DNA of 24,584 nt from Physocladia obscura (Eukaryota; Chytridiomycota; Chytridiomycetes; Chytridiales; Chytriomycetaceae): NCBI GenBank assembly GCA_027596945.1, contig JADGJH010000189.1, positions 1-24,584 on the forward strand, given 5' to 3'. This document shows, one piece after another, positions 6,149 through 23,174 of this stretch. Position 1 is the stretch's first letter. Each line of letters starts with the position of its first letter. Below the pieces are notes generated by a model. It was not told the origin of the DNA. It did no database searches and saw only the letters and a list, made by a program, of their open reading frames with translations. The translations under genes and the position numbers were made by a program.

Positions 6149-9100
6149 CTAACAACGAAAAAACAAAAGTTTGACAAAAAAAAAATAATTAATGACGCTT
6201 CCTTCATACATCATGAAAATGCTTTCCACTGGTTGTTGCTTTCACGTAGTTTTTGCGAATGACAAAGTCGCCGAAATGTTCGCCATTAGCCCTGTACTTG
6301 GCGTAATCTTCAATAATTGGTGTAAGTTCTGAAATAATATCACGTTCGGTTAAGTTCTCCTTGTAAATCTTGTTCAAGCGTTCTCCATTATGCCCACCTC
6401 CCAAGTACATATTATAAGTTCCGGGTGCCTTTCCAATGAATGCAATTTCGGCAATTTGGGGTCTTGCACATCCATTTGGACATCCGGTCATTCTGATAGT
6501 GATAGCATCATCTCTTAGCCCATTGACCTCCAAAACGTTCTCAATTAAACTAATTAGATCGGGAAGATATCTCTCACTTTCAGCCATTGCAAGACCGCAG
6601 GTCGGAAGTGCAACACAGGCCATTGAATGTTGTCGCAATCCACTCAAGTTCCCATTTTCAAGCTCATACTTTCTCAAGAAAGCCTCAAACTTCCACTTTT
6701 CCGCGGCGGGTACCCCTGCAATCATCAAGTGCTGATTTGGTGTTAGTCTGAATTCTATTCCCTCGACATTTCTGCGCACAAAGTCGTCTGCAATTGTGCG
6801 AAGCCCTGACTTCATCATACGTGCCTCTTCGTCCTTGACGCGTCCATTTTGGATAAATAGTGTGTACGCCCATGTTCCTTTTGCACCCTGCGACCATCCG
6901 TATCTGTCACCATTGCTGATAAACGTATACGGCCGTGCTGGCTGCAGTTTATATCCAAGACGCTGCTCAACTTCATTACGGAACCAATCAATTCCGCGAT
7001 CGTCAATGGTGTACTTGAGACGGGCATGCTTACGGTTTGTGCGGTCACCGAAATCACGCTGAACGAGAACGACCTTTTCACCAACATTTACGGCCTGCTC
7101 GATAGTGCAGAAACCAAGGAGGTCACCAAGACGGGGATAAGTTGTATTCATACTATGTGTCATTCCCATTCCACCTCCAACCGTGACTGTTACGTTCCGA
7201 AATAAAAATAAAAAAAGTAAATATCAAGAAAAATTTCGAATGTTCGTCAAACAAACCATTGAATCCAATCAAATTATCTCCGTCAACTATTGAAATGTAT
7301 CCTAAGTCGTGAGCAAACACATCCACATCATTATATGGAGGAACAGCAACAGCCACTTTAAACTTTCTTGGAAGATAAGTCTTTCCATATATTGGTTCGA
7401 CATCTTCACTCGTTACCACCATTTTTTTATCCAACCATATTTCATGGTAAGCGTTTGTATTTGGGGTCAAATGCGCACTGAATTTCCGTGAAAAGTTCAA
7501 AACTTGGGCATGCACATTTGAGCTGGATGGGTTGGGGTTGCACATAACATTTCTATTCACATCACCACAAGCTGCCAATGTATCCATCAAAGCGTGGTTG
7601 ATTTCCTGGATGGCCTTCTTCAGCTTGCTCTTCACAATTCCGTGGAATTGGAACGCTTGTCTTGTCGTTAATTTGATTGTTCCATTTGCGAGTTTGTTTG
7701 AAACATTATCGATAGCAACCCATTGTGCCGGTGTTGCAACACCTCCTGGTACACGCACACGCACCATGAACGAGTATGCAGCTTCTAAACCGGCACGGAG
7801 GCGGGATTCCCGGATATCGCGGTCATCTTGCTGGTAAATCCCATGAAATTTCGTAAGGCGTTGATCTAATTCAGCAAGTGACCCAGTGGTTGTGTCTTCC
7901 AGACCAGGTGCAATTGTTCCACGTAAGAAGTTTGAAGCTTCTTTAATTGCATCGTCAGTTCCCACCATGACAGCTGGTCCAGAAACTTCAACAAAATCAA
8001 CACCAAGAGATGCCCACAAATCGGCAGCGAATAATTTGTATCCCGTTTGCCAACCGTCTGCATCTCTGTCATTTCCAATTCCAATACTAACAAGCCTTGG
8101 AGCACCCAAAGCCTCCAACTTTGCATCCAAATCTTTTCCACTCTTGCAGAAAAAGTGCGCATCAGATGGAAGTGGCCAGTAATGTGAGTCTCCCATTGCA
8201 AAAACAGCATATCTCATTTTCCCGAAATCAACCTCCCCGCCTTTCTTGAGTCCTTGTAAAGCTTTCCAAGTTTCTCTCGAATTTCCAGGAAACTCCCCCT
8301 GACCTGCCGTACTTACGACAAATACAACGTGCTCATGGCCAACAAAATCCTCCACAGAATATTCATCCATCACGCTAAGTTTTGGTTTCAAACCCCGTTG
8401 CTTTGCTTCAGCAACAAGCCGTTTCGCTGCCCCCGCTGCAGCACCACCGTCACTTCCATACAAAATTAGCACGGGTGTAGTATTCAAGTTCGCGACTAAA
8501 GCCGCATAACTGTCCTTAATCTTCGCCTCTACATCCGCTTGTAACTCTTTTTCAACAGAAGGAACAAGCTCCAATGTTGGCTCGGCGGCGGCAATCAAAC
8601 TGATATGTCGATCCCGTTCAAGGAATACTTCGAGCTCTCCACGCATCTTTTCGCTGTCGAGACAAAACGAACTCTCCCCAAACGCGGATGGCGTCCATCG
8701 ATACAACGGCCAGTACCCTTCGTCCACCGCCTGTTTTGTCTCCTTCAACGCCGCCAGTGCTGCTGTGGCTGCAAGCCCTGCGCCACCCTTCACAAGTACG
8801 CCACTGCCACTGGCACTACCAGCTGTGGAAACGCGGGGCGCATACGCCACAACAACACTCGGACCGTTAAATGCGTCCGCTTCAGTGAGTGCTCGGACTA
8901 CGCCCGCAAAGCTAGACTGCAATGCAACACTCGCAACATATACACCTCCATATGTCATTGCATACAGGCCAATATCTTTTCGTCGCGTATCTGGAGATAA
9001 TGAATTCTTTTTTTCACTGTATGGCTGCGTGTCGAGGATTAAAATGTTGACGTTTGATTTGCTCGCTACAACATGGTGCACACCACTGGCACCAATATCA

Positions 9101-10842
9101 TGCGTAAGTGCGTCGCCGCCAAGAATCCAACGTGAAGGCGGTTTGGTGAGAAGGTAGGCAGCAGATTCTTGGTAGAAGTCCCGCAAGTACTTTGTGGATT
9201 GGTCGGTTGAAATTACGTCTGAAAGGTGTTTGTAAGCCTCTTGCCCGTGCGTCGTGGATGTTGTGGCAATATTCGTGCCGATAGTTTGGGCAGCGATCCA
9301 GGCCTCGAGAGGCGCTGAGGCATTAGTTGGTAGTGTTTTGCTTGCCACGATTTCCTGAGCTTTGATTATGAATCGGTCACGTTCTTGCAGCTGCGATAGA
9401 TGGAGGCCGAGTCCAAATTCAGCACTGGTGCCTGTGAGTTTTCCGTTCTTTGACGCAGGGGTGGTAGCAGCTTTATTTGTGGCGGTTACCAAAGTAGGCG
9501 GGGATAGCAAATGAGCACCTGATTCTTCGTAAAAGTCTGAAAGTTCTTGCTGATAAGAACGGGCAGCACCTAATGCGTCGTGTGCTTTTCTCCCAAGAGA
9601 AACGGAGTTAGAAGCATTATTTGAGTCTGGCTCTTGAGCCTGTAGCCAGGCTTTTAAAGGATTTGTGACTCCTTTAGAGACTGCACTGCTGGCAACAAGA
9701 GATTTAGCTTGTTCAATAAATCTCGAACGAGCGGTCGACACAATTTGTTTCGGCTTTAGGTCAATTTCTGGCTGTAGAACAGAAGCTTCGCTGATTACGT
9801 TGGACAAATTTAAACGATCTTTGAAGATTTGATTTAAAAGTGATACATAGGGTCCCTCGATGTCGATTTCTTTGCTAGGAACATCAGAAAGGGTCACATT
9901 TGCAAATGAGTTGACCTGATTTCATTATTTTGTTGGATGAAGCTTAACAGAATCCAAACTTACAATATCTCCATGTAAATTCATAAATGCGGCATTTTCA
10001 TCAAAAACAGAAATTGCAGACTTCAAAATATTCGCAACGACATTTTCCGAAATTTCACCGTGAACTCTGATTTCTTTAATATTGAAAGATGTTGCTGATG
10101 ACGCTGCGACATCAAGAAAGATAGTACCAAACGCGTTGGAGAAATTGGAGACGAAATCGAGAACTGCAATATTGGTCGCAGAGGTGGGGATGGTAGCAAG
10201 AAGATGCTTTGCAGACCAGGGACGTTGTACACTGATTCTGAGAATCCCAACACGCTGGTTCTCTGAAATTGCACTTTCAAACAAAAAAGGCGCCGTTCCG
10301 GGGATGACGAGCACGGTTGATGGTGTCAACGGGCCCGAGTATTTAAAGAACGGAGAATTCTTCGGAAGGGCAGATTCGATGGCTTCCAATGAAAACTCAA
10401 GAGACTATAATGTGAATAAAACAATTTATTAGAAGGATAGAAAACGCGGAAATGATCGGGATTAAAGACGGTTAATGCGAACCTCCGAATAAGAATACGC
10501 GATGGGTGGCAGGGAATGCAGATCCGGTAGAGGATTGTACTGGATAAGCAGAATCGGAACGCGACCAGCTAAAGGCTCGAAAATGTTCGACTCATGTGTG
10601 GCAAGCATAATTGCAATACCGGGCACGTGGACCGCCGCCGCCGCCACTAGCGACGCGTGGGCCAGCGATGTTGGCGCCACGCGCAGCAACGGCAACGGTA
10701 CCGTTTTGTTTTTGTGTTGATCATGCGCTGTGGCCGCGTAAAGTGCCGCAACAACGCCGCCTAGGTCGCTTCCAGTGCCGAGCTCTGTTACAGTCGTCAA
10801 TGCCGACGCGGATGCGGTGGTTGCTTTTGCTGTCAAACTCAT
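6008..10842 (-). CDS. MET5: Assimilatory sulfite reductase, hemoprotein (beta) subunit, with proposed membrane tail
   Basis: Reduces sulfite to sulfide with electrons from the Met10 flavoprotein. Exons: 10842-10483, 10404-9964, 9915-7257, 7186-6210 and a proposed 6148-6008; 1525 residues, or 1480 if the last intron is retained. The first 4 introns-exons match the long fungal Met5/Ecm17 plan: pyruvate:ferredoxin-oxidoreductase-like region (residues 1 to about 730), flavodoxin-like domain (about 748-906, [24 protein letters not shown]), then two sulfite/nitrite reductase repeats. The siroheme/4Fe-4S cysteines are intact as C-x5-C (1344, 1350) and C-x3-C (1389, 1393; [10 protein letters not shown]). 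The family normally ends near FHD (1479). The last exon adds 46 residues with one hydrophobic helix, [19 protein letters not shown], and a KNE end. Divergent from MET16. Confidence 0.93.
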
Positions 10843-10878
10843 CTGTCTTTGTTGAGTTGCAACAATTTCTTCAGTGAA

Positions 10879-10888
10879 ATGGCGCAAT
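10879..10888. promoter_or_regulatory. Cys3/MetR-like site ATGGCGCAAT
   Basis: Lies 37-46 bp upstream of the MET5 start. The left half matches the Neurospora CYS3 consensus half ATGGCG, while the right half matches the neighbouring ATTGCGCAAT palindrome. It starts 31 bp (three helical turns) from the next site. Confidence 0.45.
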
Positions 10889-10909
10889 CGCTGTTTGTTT
10901 TTGTATCAA

Positions 10910-10919
10910 ATTGCGCAAT
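10910..10919. promoter_or_regulatory. Perfect palindrome ATTGCGCAAT, MET5 side
   Basis: A perfect ten-base palindrome 68 bp upstream of MET5. It differs from the CYS3 operator ATGGCGCCAT at two symmetric positions and equals the classic C/EBP bZIP site. A Cys3/MetR/Met28-type bZIP regulator is the likely reader given the genes flanking it. Confidence 0.5.
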
Positions 10920-11224
10920 CAACCTCCGTTGTTATCTCGTTTTGTGAATGATTTGAAACCAGAGAAAAAAGAGAAAGAAGAAAGAGAAAAAAATGGAAAA
11001 ACAACATAAGAGAAAAGAAGGTAAAAGGAAACATAATGAAGAGGAAGAGAGAAGTGCGGAGGGATGGAATTGCGAGACGACAATGTTTCAGTTCATCTCA
11101 ACCGAAATTTTTGCAAGATTTAAAAATAAATTTTAATTCAAGAAGAAATGAATGCAATAGAAATGACGCGTCTGTTCGTTAAAAAATCGCAAAATATACT
11201 ATTCAGTTGCAAATCACATGACCA

Positions 11225-11234
11225 ATGGCGTCAT
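11225..11234. promoter_or_regulatory. Cys3 consensus site ATGGCGTCAT
   Basis: Fits the published CYS3 consensus ATGRYRYCAT at every position. It lies about 131 bp upstream of the MET16 start and starts 20 bp (two helical turns) from the next palindrome. Confidence 0.55.
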
Positions 11235-11244
11235 TTATTGATCA

Positions 11245-11254
11245 ATTGCGCAAT
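11245..11254. promoter_or_regulatory. Perfect palindrome ATTGCGCAAT, MET16 side
   Basis: Second perfect copy of the same palindrome, 111 bp upstream of the MET16 start codon. Confidence 0.5.
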
Positions 11255-11364
11255 CGTCACCAAAAAATTTTCACCTCCCCAAGATTCGAAATTGCAAGTT
11301 TCAAAAAAAAAAGGAAAAGCGATTATACTTTAGAAAGAACCAGCCACAAGTTGAAGTGTGAATT

Positions 11365-12468
11365 ATGACAGTCTCTTCAACAAGCCCTTCTGCGCAATCT
11401 TCAGCAACCCGAACGCAAACTTCAGCAGCAGTTTCAGTTTCGTCAGAGACAGCACTACCTACGTCCGAAACAAAGCAAGCCATTCTTACCCAACCTTTGT
11501 TTGTTTACAATCCTGAGTACATTGCGTTCCTCAACAAATCTCTTGCTACGCGGTCACCGGAAGAAATTCTGGAATGGGCCTTGATTTCCCTTCCTGGGCT
11601 TGTTCAAACGACTGCCTTTGGACTTACGGGTCTCGTGATTCTTGATATGATCAACAAGATTCGTAACAGACGCCAGCTAGCAGAGCATCCAGTTCCTCTT
11701 ATCTTTATCGATACTCTCTACCGTGAGTTGTTTTTTTCAATCATTATTTGTAACGGCGATGACGTGTTGTATTGTGTTATTGATTGCGCAATTTACTGCC
11801 CAAAAAAAAAAAAAAAACGAAAAAATAACTGATCAATTTAATTGATAGATTTTCAAGAGACACTTGATGTTGCGAAACGTGCATCTGAGAAATACGATGC
11901 TCCCCTGCAAGTATACCATCCGCAAGGCCATGACAACGTTGCTTCCTTTGAATCTCATCATGGGCAAGAACTTTGGAAAACAGACGCGGATGTGTATGAC
12001 TATGTTGTAAAAGTCGAGCCCGGTAGACGTGCCGCAATTGAAAATAATGCGCAAGTGTTGATTACAGGTCGGCGGCGGAGCCAGGGCGCCTCACGCGCTG
12101 CCATTCCTATTCTTGAAATTGACTCTGGTGTTACGCCTGCGGTCTTGAAACTGAATGTTCTTGCGGACTGGGATTATGCCCGGGTTTGGAAATATGTGCA
12201 AGAAAATGGAGTCCCGTATAATGTGCTACATGACCGAAATTACAAAAGTATCGGTGACTGGCATTCGACTCAACCAACTGCAGAATCGGAAGGAGAACGG
12301 GATGGGAGATGGAAAGGTGAAGCAAAGACTGAATGTGGTTTGCACAAGGACTACTTTAAGATGCGGGCGAATTACTTGGCAGCTGCCAAAAAGAGGAAGT
12401 TGACTGAATCTACGGATTTTGTTCTTGTTGATTCGGAAGAGCCTTCTTCAAAGAAAATTGATTCTTAA
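11365..12468 (+). CDS. MET16: Phosphoadenylyl-sulfate (PAPS) reductase
   Basis: Reduces PAPS to sulfite and adenosine 3',5'-bisphosphate using thioredoxin, the step before sulfite reductase. Two exons, 11365-11722 and 11849-12468, join in phase 1 to give 325 residues. Family marks in order: TTAFGLTGLVILDM (PP-loop region of the adenine nucleotide alpha hydrolase fold), LIFIDTLYHFQETLD, TGRRRSQGASR (about 193-202), VLADWDYARVWKYV, SIGDWHST, GERDGRW and KTECGLH, whose Cys272 is the catalytic cysteine that carries the sulfo group. Only this cysteine is present in the C-terminal motif, as in PAPS reductases rather than the two-pair iron-sulfur APS reductases. The N-terminal 45 residues are Ser/Thr-rich and not conserved. 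The C-terminus is hydrophilic with a Lys/Arg patch. Confidence 0.95.
11783..11792. promoter_or_regulatory. ATTGCGCAAT palindrome inside the MET16 intron
   Basis: A third perfect copy of the palindrome lies within the 126-bp MET16 intron (11723-11848). I noticed no other exact copy in the rest of the window, though this was a scan by eye. Confidence 0.4.
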
Positions 12469-13213
12469 TTTCATTTTTATTCTCCGTTTATTTTTGGTTA
12501 AACACCAATACAGTTAAAATTTGGATTTTAGGCACTAACATTATGATTCTGCACTCCTGAATCAATAATTGTCTATTTGCAGAAATGAGAGAGGCAGTTG
12601 CATTGTTTGGAAAATAGATGCATTTCTTGTGGTTGACATGATTATGATGGGGCCAATACAATACAAATGTCGATGTCTATTACTAAACCCATGAAACTTG
12701 AAATCACAAGAGCCTGCAATAAATTGTTCTGTTTGAATGTGTGAAAATAAGCCCGACAAAACTCCCTACCAAACGACTCATCCAATAGTTACACTTATAA
12801 CAGCAAAATTGATAATAGATTATCTTGCATCAGAATACAAGTAAAAACAACATAATTCATGAAATTGTGAAAAATCAGAGTACAGTAAGTGGTGGTGATG
12901 TTATATTTGATTCTTTGCTTTCTGTATAGTTCATCACCATGAACACTCAACCAATCCAAGCTAAAAAAACTTGTAATAATCAAATAGTTTCTGTAGTAAA
13001 ATGTGTATGCGTGATTTCTGCACTTGAAAATGAATTAAATACTGTTGCGTGTGATTTTGACAGCTGTGCCAATGATATTGCATGGTATTTAGTCAAATGG
13101 CACTGAAATTCAACCCATTGCATTTTTATTTTGCTTTAATTTATTATAGAGTAGGATGACTTCTTTTTTAAATTTTAATACTTTCTCATAATAAAATACT
13201 TTATTATTAATCG
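12469..13213. other. AT-rich spacer between convergent genes
   Basis: MET16 and TAH18 end here facing each other. The 745 bp carry only short chance reading frames, no recognised domain fragment, no tRNA-like structure and no clear repeat. I see nothing else in it beyond the two 3' ends. Confidence 0.6.
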
Positions 13214-15882
13214 TTAAACCCAGCATTCGCTTTGATACTGTCTTGATTTTTCCAATTTGGCCAAGTGCTCGAGTGCAGCAGGCTCGTCCATTTTGCCCAC
13301 TTTCTGGAAAATTTCAACCAAAGCACCGTCAACAGCTTTTGGGATGCGTTGCGCATTCCTGACCGAAAAAATAGTAATAATCAGATACGTATTGAACAAT
13401 AATGTATAAGTATATAAAAAGCAAAGATTGCGTTTTACTGTGTCAGATTTGGGCTTACCCAGAAACAAAAATAGATCCACCAAGTTGCAGTATATCCCAA
13501 ATCAGTTGAGCTTGTTCACCCATACGATGTTGAATATAAACAATTTTGTTCTTTGGAAATTTTGTGAGTCACTGGTAAATCAATCTTTTTTTCCCCCATT
13601 TACAATAACTCAACTGGATCGTCACGGGAAAAGGCAGGAAAATACGACAGTTTCCCGACATTTTGTAGTTCCTCAAATTCATTTCCGTACAAGTGGTCTG
13701 ACTTTTTTCCTCGGAATCCAGCAAATAATATATTTTCTAAGACAAAGTAACAAAAGTATTTAAACAAACCGAAACGAAAAGGAAAAAAATAATATATAAG
13801 ACAAACAAACCTGAGGATCCATTTTGAATCCGTGCTAATAACAAGGACCGCATTGGTGCAATTCCGGTTCCTAGAACAGTTGAAAAAAACAGCCTATTTA
13901 ATAGACAATTATTTTGGGCTCCTTTTGCCAAAAATGTAGTATCTTTTTCTTGCTTTCGATATTTCACATTTCTCCATTCGATATAACCAAAAAATAATGA
14001 TAATTAAACAACACAAACCTGCAGCAACAAAAATAACAGCAACATTCGGATCCTTTGGAATCTTTAATGTCCCTGCATCAATACGAAACCAAACTCGGTC
14101 TCCAGACTTTATTCGTGCAAGCATCTTTGAACATACGCCTTCACGCAGCTTTTGCATTTTTGTCTTGTACACAACAATGCCGACAGTTATGTCAACAACA
14201 ACAGTCGCAGCGTTCCCGTTATTGCCGTTGCTGTTGCTGCTGCTGTTGTCGTTCGATCCGGAAGTGCTCTGAGGAGCACTAGATATGCTATACATTCGCG
14301 GCCGCATAGGCGGAATCAAGTCAAACAGGTACGCGGGTGGGATGCGGCCTTTACAGCTGTGAAAATCCATGAGAACTTCGAATGTCGTTCGACGCAGACG
14401 GTGGCAGTACGTATATAGTTCCTCTTGGCCAGCTGGCGAGGCGAATTCGCGCAGTTTGTCGGCGTGCATGACGTCAGGTGTGAAGAATGAGAGGAGCTCG
14501 AAAAAGTATCTTTTGGGAGCCCCGAATATGTCCAAGTGGTGTGTGAGGGCGGACCGTAAGGTAAGGTTTTTAGGAAATGTGGTGGGGATTTTTATATCTG
14601 GATTTTGGTGTGTACTTTTTAAAAGGATTGTTGAAGTTTATGAGATGTTGTGAATTTGACCCTTCTATTGTCGCGTCTTTTTTTCCTCTCTTTGCTTTTC
14701 TTCGCATCGTGGCTCACTTCGCTTGTTATTTAATAATAGTATTAACCTCCATTCTGAACAAGCGCGAATGGTTTGTCAGCAATATCAGCCCAGCCGAAAA
14801 AGTCAATGACTTTGACAATCTCCTCAGGAGGATTTGAGGGATAAATACAAAGAATGTCGGCAGGAGAGTATCTTGCGATTGAAACGCGTGTAAGTATTGT
14901 TATTTGTTATTATCATCTATTTTTATTTTTTGATGACGAAAAAAGAAACCTGGTGTTTTCCGAAACTTCAAAGGAAATACGACGCACATCCTGAAAGTGA
15001 TTGACTGCAGAGATGCGTGAGTTTGATTTGCAAGTGGCATAGTTGAGGTTTGCGCAAGCATTGCTATCGTCATCGATATTGTTTTCGTTGTCGAGGGGGG
15101 TTTGTGATGAGGAGTCGGCAACGGGGTAGAGGGGAGGCAATGGGGTAAAGGCGGGAGATGGCAGAATATGACGCGAGGGTTCGACGAAGAGCGGCAGTTT
15201 TGGGCAGAGTTTATCGAGGGCCGGCCAGAAGTTTGCAGCCCACTCGAGCAATGTGTGGTCGGCGCCAAGCGGGTGCTGGTCGTCGGCATATGCGGGCTCG
15301 GCGACAAACATTGCACCCAGATTCAGCAGGCGGCGAGCGAGTTTCTGCAAGTCGTAGGAATGTGTTATGCTGGGGAGTGATGCAGTATGAAATCACCTTT
15401 GCGGCCCAGTTGAAACGCGGATAGGCCGAATCGCCCAAGCCAACAACGGCCACTTGGCGCGATTCAAAGATGCGCAACTGAGTAGTCTTGACATTGAGCA
15501 CGCGACGCCACCATCGGCGCATGTTGCGGGGTGCCTCGCCCTGGCCCGTAGTGGACACGACAAACACGAGGATAGTATTAGGATCTGTTCGTTCGTTTTA
15601 TAGTAGACGTTAACGTTGGAGTACGTTGGGGTGCGGTAAAGGTGCGTTGCGGTAACGATAATGGCAACGGGAGGTCAGAGCGCACGCACCGTCGTCACTC
15701 TCACTGTCTGTATGGATGTCGTCTAAAGCCCGTGCGCTGCCGCCGCCGCCGACGCGAAAGCCTCTGCGGCAGGCCTCGCGTGCCACGTCGGCGGCCCACT
15801 CGGCGGCCGATCCCGTCTCGCTGGCGTACCAGACGCGCACCGAGCCGCGGTATCTATCTGCAGTGAGAGAGGCCGAGGTCAT
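13214..15882 (-). CDS. TAH18: NADPH-dependent diflavin oxidoreductase Tah18
   Basis: Passes electrons from NADPH through FAD and FMN to Dre2, for cytosolic iron-sulfur cluster assembly. Nine exons: 15882-15690, 15584-15397, 15344-14950, 14871-14747, 14597-14019, 13870-13811, 13736-13615, 13550-13459, 13358-13214; phases agree and give 632 residues (yeast Tah18 is of similar size). FMN domain: YASETGS (19-25), STTGQGEAP, VVGLGDSAYPRFNWAAK. FAD domain: RMYSIS (about 400-405), interrupted soon after by a Ser/Asn-rich insert of about 20 residues. NADP domain: GTGIAPMRSLL (from about 494), GNEFEEL, AFSRDDP, YIQHRMGEQ. The C-terminal ECWV holds the aromatic residue that stacks on FAD. A proline/Asp-rich linker of about 50 residues follows the FMN domain. 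It is shorter than sulfite reductase flavoproteins (Met10), so I do not call it MET10. Confidence 0.93.
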
Positions 15883-19643: not shown

Positions 19644-19819
19644 CTTCGATTATTTTCGTTATTTTTAAATTTTATTTATGTTTGCTATTGCGAGTGAAGC
19701 TGATACAGAGGACTTTTTAAGTTTACAAAATCAATTGCAGAGCTTGCAACCTCTCTTCTTGAGCAGAGAGCTTGCACAAGCAATATTTTCATTTTTTATT
19801 TGAAAAGAAACATTGTTTT

Positions 19820-22800
19820 ATGTCTGCCAAAGATTACGTTTCCCAGTTGGAAGTAAAGTGTTCAAAACTGGGCATCGCCGCTTCTAGGCCAAACTATGAA
19901 ATTGCGGAAAAGCGCGGGAAAGATCATGACGTGAGCTTCGCTATCAATCGCAAGTATCATTAATCATTAAACACCCGGCAATGTCAACGCCGAATTCAAC
20001 AACAGCCTCTCTTCAAGATGCGAGTATTCGTTTCAAACTCCTCATACGTGGGCATCGAGTGGTGCAAATCGTCGAAATTGGCCAGACAAGAAGTAATTGC
20101 TACCGAGTCCGATTATTACATAACAACTCAACCTGATATGCAAATACAAACAGGCAGCGCGCGTTGCTTTAATCAACTTGGGTTGGTTGGACTCTGTCGT
20201 CGTGGGAAATCATTCGTCAGTTCAAATGGAGGACTCGCAATCGTCGAACGCGATAAATGAAATCCTGCCTCCACAAGTAAACTCTACCCAAAAAAAAAAC
20301 CAGGAAATAATATCATGGCTTTCTGAAATTGCTCAAGGATCCAATGCCGTGCTCACTGAGATGTACAGTGCGGCTGGGTCTGGTGAATTCAAATGCCACT
20401 TCATGTGGAATGCTCTTCGTTTACCCAGCTCCGAAATATTTCCAAGGAAAAAGGATGCAAAATCACAAGCAGCGCAGCTAGCCCTTGATTACGTGTTGAA
20501 TGCGCACATCGAATCCGTCCATATACCCCCTCATCTTTTAAAGAAAATAATTCCAACTCGGGTGGGTGTCAGTTCCTCTCAAAATATTGATTCTTCAGCA
20601 ACTCTTCAGCAAGTGCCATTATTCGATACTCGAATGGTCGCAAATTTACCTATTGAACAATCACAAGCTCAGCCTGTCGAATCATTCGTCATTGTTCCGC
20701 CCTTGTGTTCACAAACAAACCCCATGACCGACCTTCAAGTTTACGTCAAAAAAAACTCAATTGCTATTAAAAATTATTTCAAACAACTTGGCTCCGTAAA
20801 TACTTTTCTCACAATTTCATATAACGAAATTTCGAGCCCCACAGAATTCAAGTTTTCTGTTTCTCTCGATTCGCACGTCTTGTCGCAAAGTGATGGTTTT
20901 CCAAAGAAAATTCTTGCAAAGCGACACGCAGCGGAGCAGGCGCTTGAAGAATTGAAATCTATCGTTGAAGATGGTAACAACAAAGGAATTAAACGTCGTA
21001 AATTTGGCTCATCGATTGAAAGCGTTGCAAGTCCGTCAAGTGTTGATATCGTCGTCCATGAAGTTTGTTGTATTTTGTGTTGTAATTGGAATAAATTTTT
21101 TTTTTTGTATGGCAGACCGACGTTCACTCTGTGGTATGGAATCGTGAGCTCATCAAATTTGTCAGTGAGAATTTAACGCCTGGCTCCGACATGCTTAAAT
21201 GCAGAAAAAATATTTTGGCCAGTATTTGCCGTTCCTTCACGGCGAGCAAAAGTTTACACATTGGCAGAACTATTGTGTCTGGTCCATTTGGACGGTATTG
21301 GCTTTTATTTTAACAGTCTTTTGGTTTATTAACCAAGCTTGTCTTTCGCAGTGAAACAAATCTTGTATATGACTCCAACATCACAATTGTTTTGTTTCAG
21401 CGACCGAAACCGCCTTCCACCTTGGTTCTATTACAAAATTCTTCGGCGGCAGTAAATCTGAGCATGCAGTCTTTTTATGAACTTGTGTCTTCAGCTCTTA
21501 AGTCTTCTCCAATCAATGCAAGCATTGAAACGATTTTGCCGTTAGCGAAAAACAGTGGTTTGGAAGTTTGGTACAAAGGCATTCAATCTCTCAAACTGAC
21601 AATTCTCGAAGGAAAAGATTTCATGGATGAAAAAGATTTCATGAAACCAGAATTAGCATCACGAGTACAGCAAAGTCTAAGACACTCATGTGCATTGATT
21701 GAGATGCGGAAACAAATTTTAAAAATTAGAGAATCGGGAGAAGGTGAAAGTGGCGGCTATGTTAGTGGCAGTGGTGGTGGTTGTGGGATTAGCCAAGCTT
21801 TAATTGAATCATGTGTGTTAAATTTCATTTTTCCGTTATTTTTATCTATCTTTTTATTTTATTTTATTTTAATCACTAATATTTTCATAACTAGGGGAGC
21901 CAAATTACAGTGAATCGACACATTTGTTTTTCAAAAATCATCAACTTGAGCATCGAACTACTGGAAAAGTTGCAAGAGTTTTGAAATTCTGGGCAACTAC
22001 AGCTCTGGCATTTTTAGATGCAAAAGCTTTTGCTCAAGTTATGAATGTTTTGGATTTTGTGGCAGTTTGGGCGTATGACACTGTATGTTCACGTTTTCTC
22101 GCTTACTCTTCTGTTTTCTCAACTTTTATTTCTGGCCATAATCATTAGATGGAACGATCTGTTAATTTTGAGTCTTCTCGTTTATCGGCTTTTGCATCGT
22201 TTGAATTGACTTTGAAAACTTTGGAGAATTGGAAAAATATGAAGATTTTTTGGACAGGTTTTGCCATTTTTTGTCTTCTGCTTGCAATTTAACAACGATT
22301 AAAAAAACGCAGAACTATATCCTCGAACCGAAATTCAAGATTTTCTCAATCAAAATGGAGACAAACCGTTCATTTTACATCCAGCAAATCCTTTCTGTAA
22401 TTTATTTGAAAGCGTTTCGATTTCTGAATGGAGTAGAATTGGTGATTCTGCGAAAGAGGCACGCATTTTAGTCGAAAAGGTTGTTTTATCGATTTTTTTA
22501 CTATTCTTTTGTAGACTGAAAAAAATTGCACTAGGCGACTCTTGGTAGTCAACAGCTCGATTTTATCTCTGAAGTTCTGAAACCTCAATTGGATTTACCC
22601 AACTCGTTCGAAATTTCTTATTGTGATATAGGGACAAGTTTTGTTCTCCCCGCCCTTTTTTTCTGACTTATGAATCAAACCCTTTGGCACTGGCACATTT
22701 TCAAACACCTTTTTTTTTCAAAAGCTGAAATATTTTGATTTGCAAACAGGAATTGTGAGGTCTAAAGAACAGATTAATTACACGAACCCAGACGTTCAAA

Positions 22801-23174
22801 TATGCTTTGAGCCAGAGGAATTGGACCATATGGATCAAGAATGTGACACTGTGCCCACACAAGCTTACTCATCGATGGAAAAAATCATGCGCATAATCAT
22901 GGCAAAGCTTGCATACCATTCAAACAACTTTTCAATGAGTAACGCGCCAATTTCACCGCAACTTTCTGATGCCGCCCTTCAACTTGCAGATATTGTTAGC
23001 AAAGAAACACAAAACTGTGTGAAAATTGTAGGCGGAGGACAGATTTCGTTGAGTGGAGGTGATAATTTTGGTAAAGCTTTAACTGGAGCATCGGATGGTG
23101 TCATTGGAAGCTTGATGTGGCCAGTTGTTGGGGGTCGTTCGATTGTTTGTTTTCGCGTTCATGTTCGAGAGTAA
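19820..23174 (+). CDS. Triple-dsRBD protein with 2'-5'-oligoadenylate-synthetase-like (inactive-looking) core
   Basis: Ten phase-consistent exons: 19820-19930, 20018-20092, 20154-21062, 21116-21294, 21352-21812, 21895-22082, 22149-22257, 22313-22479, 22535-22637, 22750-23174; 908 residues. dsRBD 1 (about 5-73; QLEVKCSKLGIAASRPNYEI, SSKLARQEAARVALINLG), dsRBD 2 (113-179; KKDAKSQAAQLALDYVL) and dsRBD 3 (265-330; KKILAKRHAAEQALEEL) each end in the basic helix that grips dsRNA. A basic patch KGIKRRKF follows. From 366 comes a nucleotidyltransferase-like fold: SGPFGRETNLVYDSNITIVL lines up with the OAS P-loop and Asp-x-Asp strand, but both aspartates are replaced (Asn434, Thr436). Residues 641-733 resemble the OAS1 C-terminal domain (MKIFWTELYPR, KPFILHPANPFCNLF). 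The last 170 or so residues match nothing I know. NF45/NF90-type DZF proteins are a related alternative. Confidence 0.8.

Follow-up and report, generated by a model that had tools for sequence, protein, structure and literature searches.

Results

A ten-exon gene for dsRNA-binding domains and an OAS-type core

The stretch of DNA analysed here, called the window below, covers 24,584 nucleotides of the 21.8 Mb genome of the aquatic chytrid Physocladia obscura (GenBank assembly GCA_027596945.1; contig JADGJH010000189.1, C189 in our numbering). On its plus strand, between 19820 and 23174, lies a gene whose ten exons make up a single open frame that encodes 912 amino acids, with GT..AG boundaries at all nine introns (53 to 112 bases long). 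The predicted protein carries three double-stranded RNA (dsRNA)-binding domains (dsRBDs), then a nucleotidyltransferase core of OAS type that appears to have lost its catalytic acid pair, and finally a tail. The exons, which rest on the splice model except where another basis is given, are:

19820..23174 (+): whole coding region including the stop codon (splice model; upstream in-frame stop at 19760; homologues)
19820..19930 (+): exon 1, residues 1-37
20006..20092 (+): exon 2, residues 38-66 (acceptor picked because it restores a PxFxM stretch common to relatives)
20154..21062 (+): exon 3, residues 67-369, with the end of dsRBD1, dsRBD2 and dsRBD3
21116..21294 (+): exon 4, in which the OAS-type N-lobe begins; largely absent from the deposited model P0001
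21352..21812 (+): exon 5, remaining N-lobe; first part absent from P0001
21895..22082 (+): exon 6
22149..22257 (+): exon 7
22313..22479 (+): exon 8
22535..22637 (+): exon 9 (acceptor same as in P0001)
22750..23174 (+): exon 10, including the stop codon

Two acceptors, those of exons 2 and 9, were set to fit relatives. An earlier splice variant of 901 amino acids was used wholly or partly in many of the comparisons below; it differs in the dsRBD1 loop and at the start of exon 9 and is identical in the active-site region. The exon 2 acceptor at 20006 raises the Pfam score of dsRBD1 from 29.2 to 37.2 bits, and exon 4 is backed by similarity to a relative in Siphonaria (the match, E 1.1e-19, spans the exon). 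The deposited P. obscura model (P0001; 96% identity over 87% of the searched part) begins within exon 3, retains just the opening codons of exon 4, and skips the start of exon 5, and for this reason it lacks dsRBD1 and the nucleotide-binding loop, both of which the new splice model recovers. The gene is the sole locus in the Physocladia genome that matches the dsRBD-OAS part of the Siphonaria protein.

In the profile search of the spliced protein, Pfam dsrm matched at three places, each with E <= 1 (E 1.7e-16 for the protein as a whole), followed by OAS1_C. This is the arrangement that the first-pass annotation, made from the letters alone, had proposed, and its picture of one ten-exon gene in a fungal-type genome is likewise borne out by the open frame, the intron boundaries and the host. 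The domains and motifs are:

19835..20180 (+): dsRBD1, residues 6-75, across introns 1 and 2, with GxxH loop (dsrm E 4.4e-9)
20307..20498 (+): dsRBD2, residues 118-181, short loop, RKKDAK in helix 2 (modelled as a dsRBD in Podochytrium, not in Siphonaria)
20724..20963 (+): dsRBD3, residues 257-336, short loop (modelled as a dsRBD in Podochytrium)
21134..21953 (+): OAS-type nucleotidyltransferase N-lobe, residues 376-602 (hhalign, N-lobe alone, 69.6%)
21281..21358 (+): GPFGRET, equivalent of OAS GSSGKGT, spanning intron 4
21377..21385 (+): N-I-T where OAS1 has its catalytic D75-x-D77
21957..22479 (+): OAS1_C-type helical C-lobe, residues 604-737 (Pfam OAS1_C; PDB profile search)
22535..23171 (+): C-terminal tail, residues 738-912, without Pfam match (24-32% identity in 3/3 pairs)

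A family in five chytrid species

The same dsRBD-OAS chain occurs in five species, all of them Chytriomycetaceae (order Chytridiales): Physocladia, Siphonaria sp. JEL0065, Podochytrium sp. JEL0797, Chytriomyces hyalinus and Obelidium mucronatum. The domain order, dsRBDs and then the OAS core, recurs in each of the four other species recovered; the Podochytrium protein is partial, as is that of Obelidium, which begins in dsRBD2 and stops before the C-lobe. The deposited Siphonaria model (P0002) is apparently merged with CFAP20, which in Physocladia lies on a different contig from the dsRBD-OAS gene, and that of C. hyalinus (P0004) with an ABC transporter. Mean identity, over pairs aligned in 20 or more columns, is 40%, 54% and 48% for dsRBD1, dsRBD2 and dsRBD3, 42% for the N-lobe and 17-24% for the linkers; the C-lobe averages 36% with the short Obelidium protein included and reaches 40-58% in the six pairs without it. 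Judged from these alignments, the domains are conserved across the family and the linkers are not. The tail is common to the three members that reach it (Physocladia, Siphonaria and Chytriomyces) and closes in a conserved WPV-like stretch; no ubiquitin-like repeat was found after the core (Pfam, whole protein, E <= 1).

Relatives were sought with word-based searches, about 8000 candidates being scored in each. One, limited to lengths of 0.55-1.75 times 421 residues, added only Obelidium, the other four species lying outside the limit, and returned no animal OAS, though animal OAS proteins fit it; another protein search missed P0001, a true homologue. Because of these misses the searches are no proof of absence from other fungi or from animals, and the confinement of the family so far to Chytriomycetaceae is only as good as they are. 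Among 102 viral and 116 prokaryotic matches to two short peptide patterns each, no relative was confirmed, and the neighbouring genes are ordinary eukaryotic ones, by which prokaryotic or viral contamination was ruled out.

The three dsRBDs

Checked against the alpha-beta-beta-beta-alpha fold with helix-2 lysines and a GxxH loop, dsRBD1 is canonical, and the loop is present in 4/4 species having the domain. No other dsRBD carries it: dsRBD2 and dsRBD3 have the fold and keep the helix-2 lysines, with a short loop. In the structure model of the Podochytrium protein all three dsRBDs form, with predicted local distance difference test (pLDDT) values, in blocks of ten residues, of 71-82 in the middle of dsRBD1 (near 50 at its edges), 71-85 in dsRBD2 and 59-81 in dsRBD3, and an insertion breaks up helix 2 of dsRBD1. 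In the poorer Siphonaria model dsRBD1 alone is confident, dsRBD2 is unformed and dsRBD3 has low confidence. VIA matches for dsRBD2 (about 1.6-2.1 Å in the closest rows) include Loqs dsRBD3, TRBP dsRBD3, ADAR1 dsRBD3 and HYL1, the first three of which are protein- or partner-binding dsRBDs. Given where the GxxH loop sits, and given that the other two domains are short-looped and weak and that dsRBD2 resembles partner-binding dsRBDs, the RNA is probably gripped by dsRBD1, and dsRBD2 and dsRBD3 may add affinity or bind partners; the lysines kept in helix 2 of dsRBD2 speak for RNA contact.

The core is kin to OAS by profile

Pfam OAS1_C (PF10421), the domain by which PMC10732462 labels the OAS superfamily, matches residues 607-731 at 31.2 bits (cut-off 19.9) and is present in 4/4 family cores. 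With profiles of four OAS domains and three DZF sequences, hhalign gave the core 97.3% for OAS vs 0.1% for DZF, the alignment spanning most of the OAS length (8-338 vs 12-328); the N-lobe alone scored 37.4 vs at most 19.2 in 100 shuffles. OAS also leads in the PDB profile search, and none of the four cores had a DZF match listed at E <= 10, in a search whose filters remove most weak matches. DZF membership was accordingly rejected by profile. When VIA-align re-examined the Foldseek candidates for the Podochytrium model, OAS came first, rows within 1 Z unit being tied. The proposed OAS-type fold with an OAS1-type C-terminal half is thus supported by Pfam, hhalign, PDB profiles and VIA; Foldseek lists ILF2/ILF3 and CdnC ahead. 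By profile the core is kin to OAS and not to DZF; the Foldseek rows disagree.

The catalytic pair and the OAS dsRNA contacts

The nucleotide-binding loop reads GAFGRGT, GPFGRET or GTFGRGT in the family vs GSSGKGT in OAS1, with the P-loop Ser replaced. At the places of D75 and D77 the five species have S-E, N-T, S-E, M-E and A-E, and scanning 22 residues directly turned up no acid-x-acid in any of them; a register shift of two brings a conserved Asp to the D75 place followed by S, N, S, M or A at D77, still without an acid pair. Among the controls the scan found DAD in human and pig OAS1 and in OAS2 domain 2 (three of the four OAS domains), and none in OAS2 domain 1 or in either of two ILF2 sequences. 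The absence of the pair in 5/5 species makes 2',5'-oligoadenylate (2-5A) signalling unlikely.

The S63, D75, Q229 and Y230 places are not kept. Those of G62 and K66 (as R) are, and R210 and K213 are kept in 4/4 species with a residue there; Q229, Y230, R210 and K213 are functional OAS1 positions. On this evidence and the missing acid pair an active 2-5A synthase was rejected. Of the basic residues through which OAS1 contacts dsRNA (K42, K60, R195, K199 and K204), only K199 is kept (K/R, 4/4 species with a residue there); the other places are replaced, save for K204, which is R in Siphonaria, with R195 as H in Physocladia and K204 as H in Podochytrium. Judged by its residues, the core thus seems neither to catalyse any longer nor to read dsRNA in the OAS manner. 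A Trp placed at the D148 site by hand alignment was dropped, since hhalign disagrees.

RNA-silencing genes and neighbours

The Physocladia genome holds three RNA-dependent RNA polymerase (RdRP) loci (contigs C103, C809 and C262), three Piwi loci (C587, C21 and, weaker, C193) and two tandem RNase III loci (C129 and C61). Searches of the genome with PF00035, PF10421, PF06479 and PF07528 gave no matches; those with PF00035 and PF10421 miss even the dsRBD-OAS gene, so their null means little. No RNase L-type nuclease domain was found, in a search that gave nothing in control genomes either. A single adenosine-deaminase (A_deamin) domain lies at C199:18152-18865, with no dsRBD noticed in its frames; by eye it looks to be of tRNA type (ADAT1/Tad1), and an ADAR is therefore not indicated.

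Within the window, eight neighbouring frames were scanned, one of them without a match. They include a VHS-SH3 protein, an MFS transporter, sulfite reductase, PAPS reductase, RIX1 and a methyltransferase, and no defence gene was seen among the eight. The sulfite reductase frame, PAPS reductase and an FAD-binding reductase domain cluster at 7156-14637, possibly as a sulfur-assimilation cluster.

Discussion

We propose, with a probability of roughly 0.55, that the protein is a non-catalytic dsRNA-binding scaffold and not a 2-5A synthase, combining three dsRBDs with an OAS core that has no acid pair. This function is predicted from the domain order, the profile kinship to OAS, the acid pair missing in five species and the RNA interference (RNAi) genes of the genome. 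The first-pass annotation had offered a dsRNA sensor or a dsRNA-binding scaffold: the loss of the pair and the presence of the dsRBDs favour the scaffold, and an active sensor is not supported. Of its further suggestions, a link to RNA silencing has circumstantial backing only, in that the genome holds RdRP and Piwi loci together with tandem RNase III loci, and mycovirus defence and RNA-editing control found no direct evidence. An RNAi or antiviral role is one that we infer.

In the scaffold mechanism that we envisage, dsRBD1 with its GxxH loop would provide the main grip on dsRNA, and the short-loop dsRBD2 and dsRBD3 would add affinity or bind partners. The dead OAS module could pair with itself or with a partner and align along the duplex, much as the pseudoenzyme DZF modules of NF45-NF90 do. 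Most speculatively, the resulting coat or platform might set the reach of Dicer, RdRP and other dsRNA enzymes to viral, transposon or inverted-repeat RNA. We raise only tentatively, as a rather doubtful extension, that the chytrid family made its own NF90-like invention: an OAS core with dead catalysis and three dsRBDs in front, acting as a dsRNA-coating pseudoenzyme that gates multi-copy RNAi.

Several observations weigh against the scaffold proposal. The 50 rows that Foldseek listed contain no OAS chain, whichever model was used, and ILF2/ILF3 and CdnC are the highest-placed nucleotidyltransferases; the VIA root-mean-square deviations are large (13.6-16.0 Å), and the Siphonaria and Podochytrium models have low mean confidence (pLDDT 39.9 and 51.7; predicted template modelling score 0.30 and 0.28). 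The two later dsRBDs have no long loop and are weak by sequence. As isolated pieces they fall under the cut-off of 23 bits (dsRBD2 18.0 bits, E 0.0044; dsRBD3 21.9 bits, E 2.6e-4); the Siphonaria pieces score 23.7, above it, and 19.2, and in Chytriomyces the dsRBD3 piece scores 15.7 bits and the dsRBD2 piece has no dsrm match at E <= 1. The acid test is not clean, since ILF3x, from a pseudoenzyme family, has D-x-D and OASL, an inactive protein, shows E-V-E at the catalytic place; these controls make absence of the pair telling and its presence not. The D148 place, that of the third catalytic Asp of OAS, aligns to R/T/K/C/K, in a region where the register is weak and which the N-lobe-only alignment does not reach. 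In 5/5 species an Asp lies two positions ahead of the D75 place, and a D or E is found four residues past the D148 place; these nearby acids, with the poor alignment at D148, leave some room for a rearranged active site.

Such an active site would be at the heart of an active dsRNA sensor, in which the dsRBDs would bring in the dsRNA and the OAS core would produce a signalling nucleotide. The OAS fold with OAS1_C, the G62, K66, R210 and K213 places and the conserved acids close to the catalytic ones agree with it; against it stand the missing acid-x-acid pair, the loss of the S63, D75, Q229 and Y230 places and the search for an RNase L-type nuclease, silent in the control genomes too, and we consider it improbable. 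Somewhat better placed, if still unlikely, is an RNA-silencing cofactor of the TRBP/Loquacious/R2D2/DRB kind, overlapping with the scaffold, whose dsRBDs pass dsRNA to Dicer while the dead OAS module docks. The silencing loci suit this idea, as do the top three Foldseek rows for the Podochytrium model (TARBP2, DRB4 and Loqs-PB) and the partner-binding dsRBDs among the dsRBD2 VIA rows. However, any dsRBD looks like those of TRBP or DRB proteins, the helix-2 lysines of dsRBD2 point to RNA contact, and we know of no Dicer partner with an OAS core.

Membership of a fungal DZF lineage (NF90/NF45/ZFR) with shuffled domains would explain why chains of ILF3/ILF2 rank ahead of OAS in Foldseek (E 9.5e-5 to 8.4e-4) and why both families join dsRBDs to a pseudo-nucleotidyltransferase; the profile comparisons make it very improbable. 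The least probable account by our estimate, with hardly anything to recommend it, is an annotation or assembly artefact that joined two genes, one for the dsRBDs and one for OAS. The family does have faulty deposited models, with exons missing in one and foreign genes merged in two, but the same junction in five species makes a merge unlikely, and the linker intron between the dsRBD and core parts (21063-21115) is only 53 bases long.

Discussion of OAS proteins usually centres on their role as antiviral enzymes of animals. The OAS superfamily has been reported in 8/12 eukaryotic supergroups, in an article whose main text contains neither dsRBD nor DZF (PMC10732462), and UniRef gives P0001 an OAS name, so that the OAS match is already in databases. 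In the open-access literature searched, no title or abstract start among the matches listed dealt with OAS in chytrids or with an OAS protein that bears dsRBDs; nor did those matches describe the fusion to dsRBDs, the lost catalytic pair or the confinement, so far, to one chytrid family. If our proposal is right, a fungal OAS branch has kept the fold, lost the catalytic pair and leaves dsRNA reading to separate dsRBDs, and the OAS fold would be useful without 2-5A. Such a branch would offer OASL and NF90, with their hard-to-explain pseudoenzyme parts, a natural counterpart for comparison, and would point to a new factor that handles dsRNA in an order of fungi known to harbour mycoviruses (10.0% of the 40 isolates of Chytridiales that were screened; PMC7482067). 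On the more doubtful NF90-like reading raised above, evolution would have arrived at a pseudo-nucleotidyltransferase with dsRBDs no fewer than two times, starting from OAS in fungi and from DZF in animals.

Comparison with known systems

With OAS1, OAS2 and OAS3 the chytrid protein shares a two-lobed core over most of the OAS length, OAS1_C and the R210 and K213 places; unlike them, it has lost the catalytic pair and the P-loop Ser, does not keep four of the five OAS1 dsRNA contacts, and has three dsRBDs in front and an extra tail. OASL of vertebrates is inactive and carries ubiquitin-like repeats after its core. It resembles the chytrid proteins in having an OAS fold with an altered catalytic Asp pair (E-V-E in OASL, x-V-E in 4/5 chytrids), yet OASL keeps two acids where the chytrids do not, and the chytrids have dsRBDs and no ubiquitin-like repeats that we could find. 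CdnC, a bacterial CD-NTase of clade C, differs in being an enzyme with intact catalysis and in having no dsRBD. TRBP, Loquacious, HYL1 and DRB proteins likewise carry several serial dsRBDs but are not known to have a nucleotidyltransferase core.

The most thoroughly studied parallel in design is with NF90/ILF3 and NF45/ILF2, which Foldseek also matches and which combine a pseudo-nucleotidyltransferase with dsRBDs in one protein. The DZF domains of NF45-NF90 are described as pseudoenzymes that raise the dsRNA affinity of two dsRBDs more than tenfold, the proteins forming a heterodimer through the pseudoenzyme domain and oligomers on long dsRNA (PMC11952958). The chytrid core, in contrast, is OAS-like by profile, and its dsRBDs number three, not two, and stand before the core and not after it, the reversed order that had been remarked on at first pass. 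By analogy, this shared design suggests that the chytrid protein and NF90/NF45 use the same working principle.
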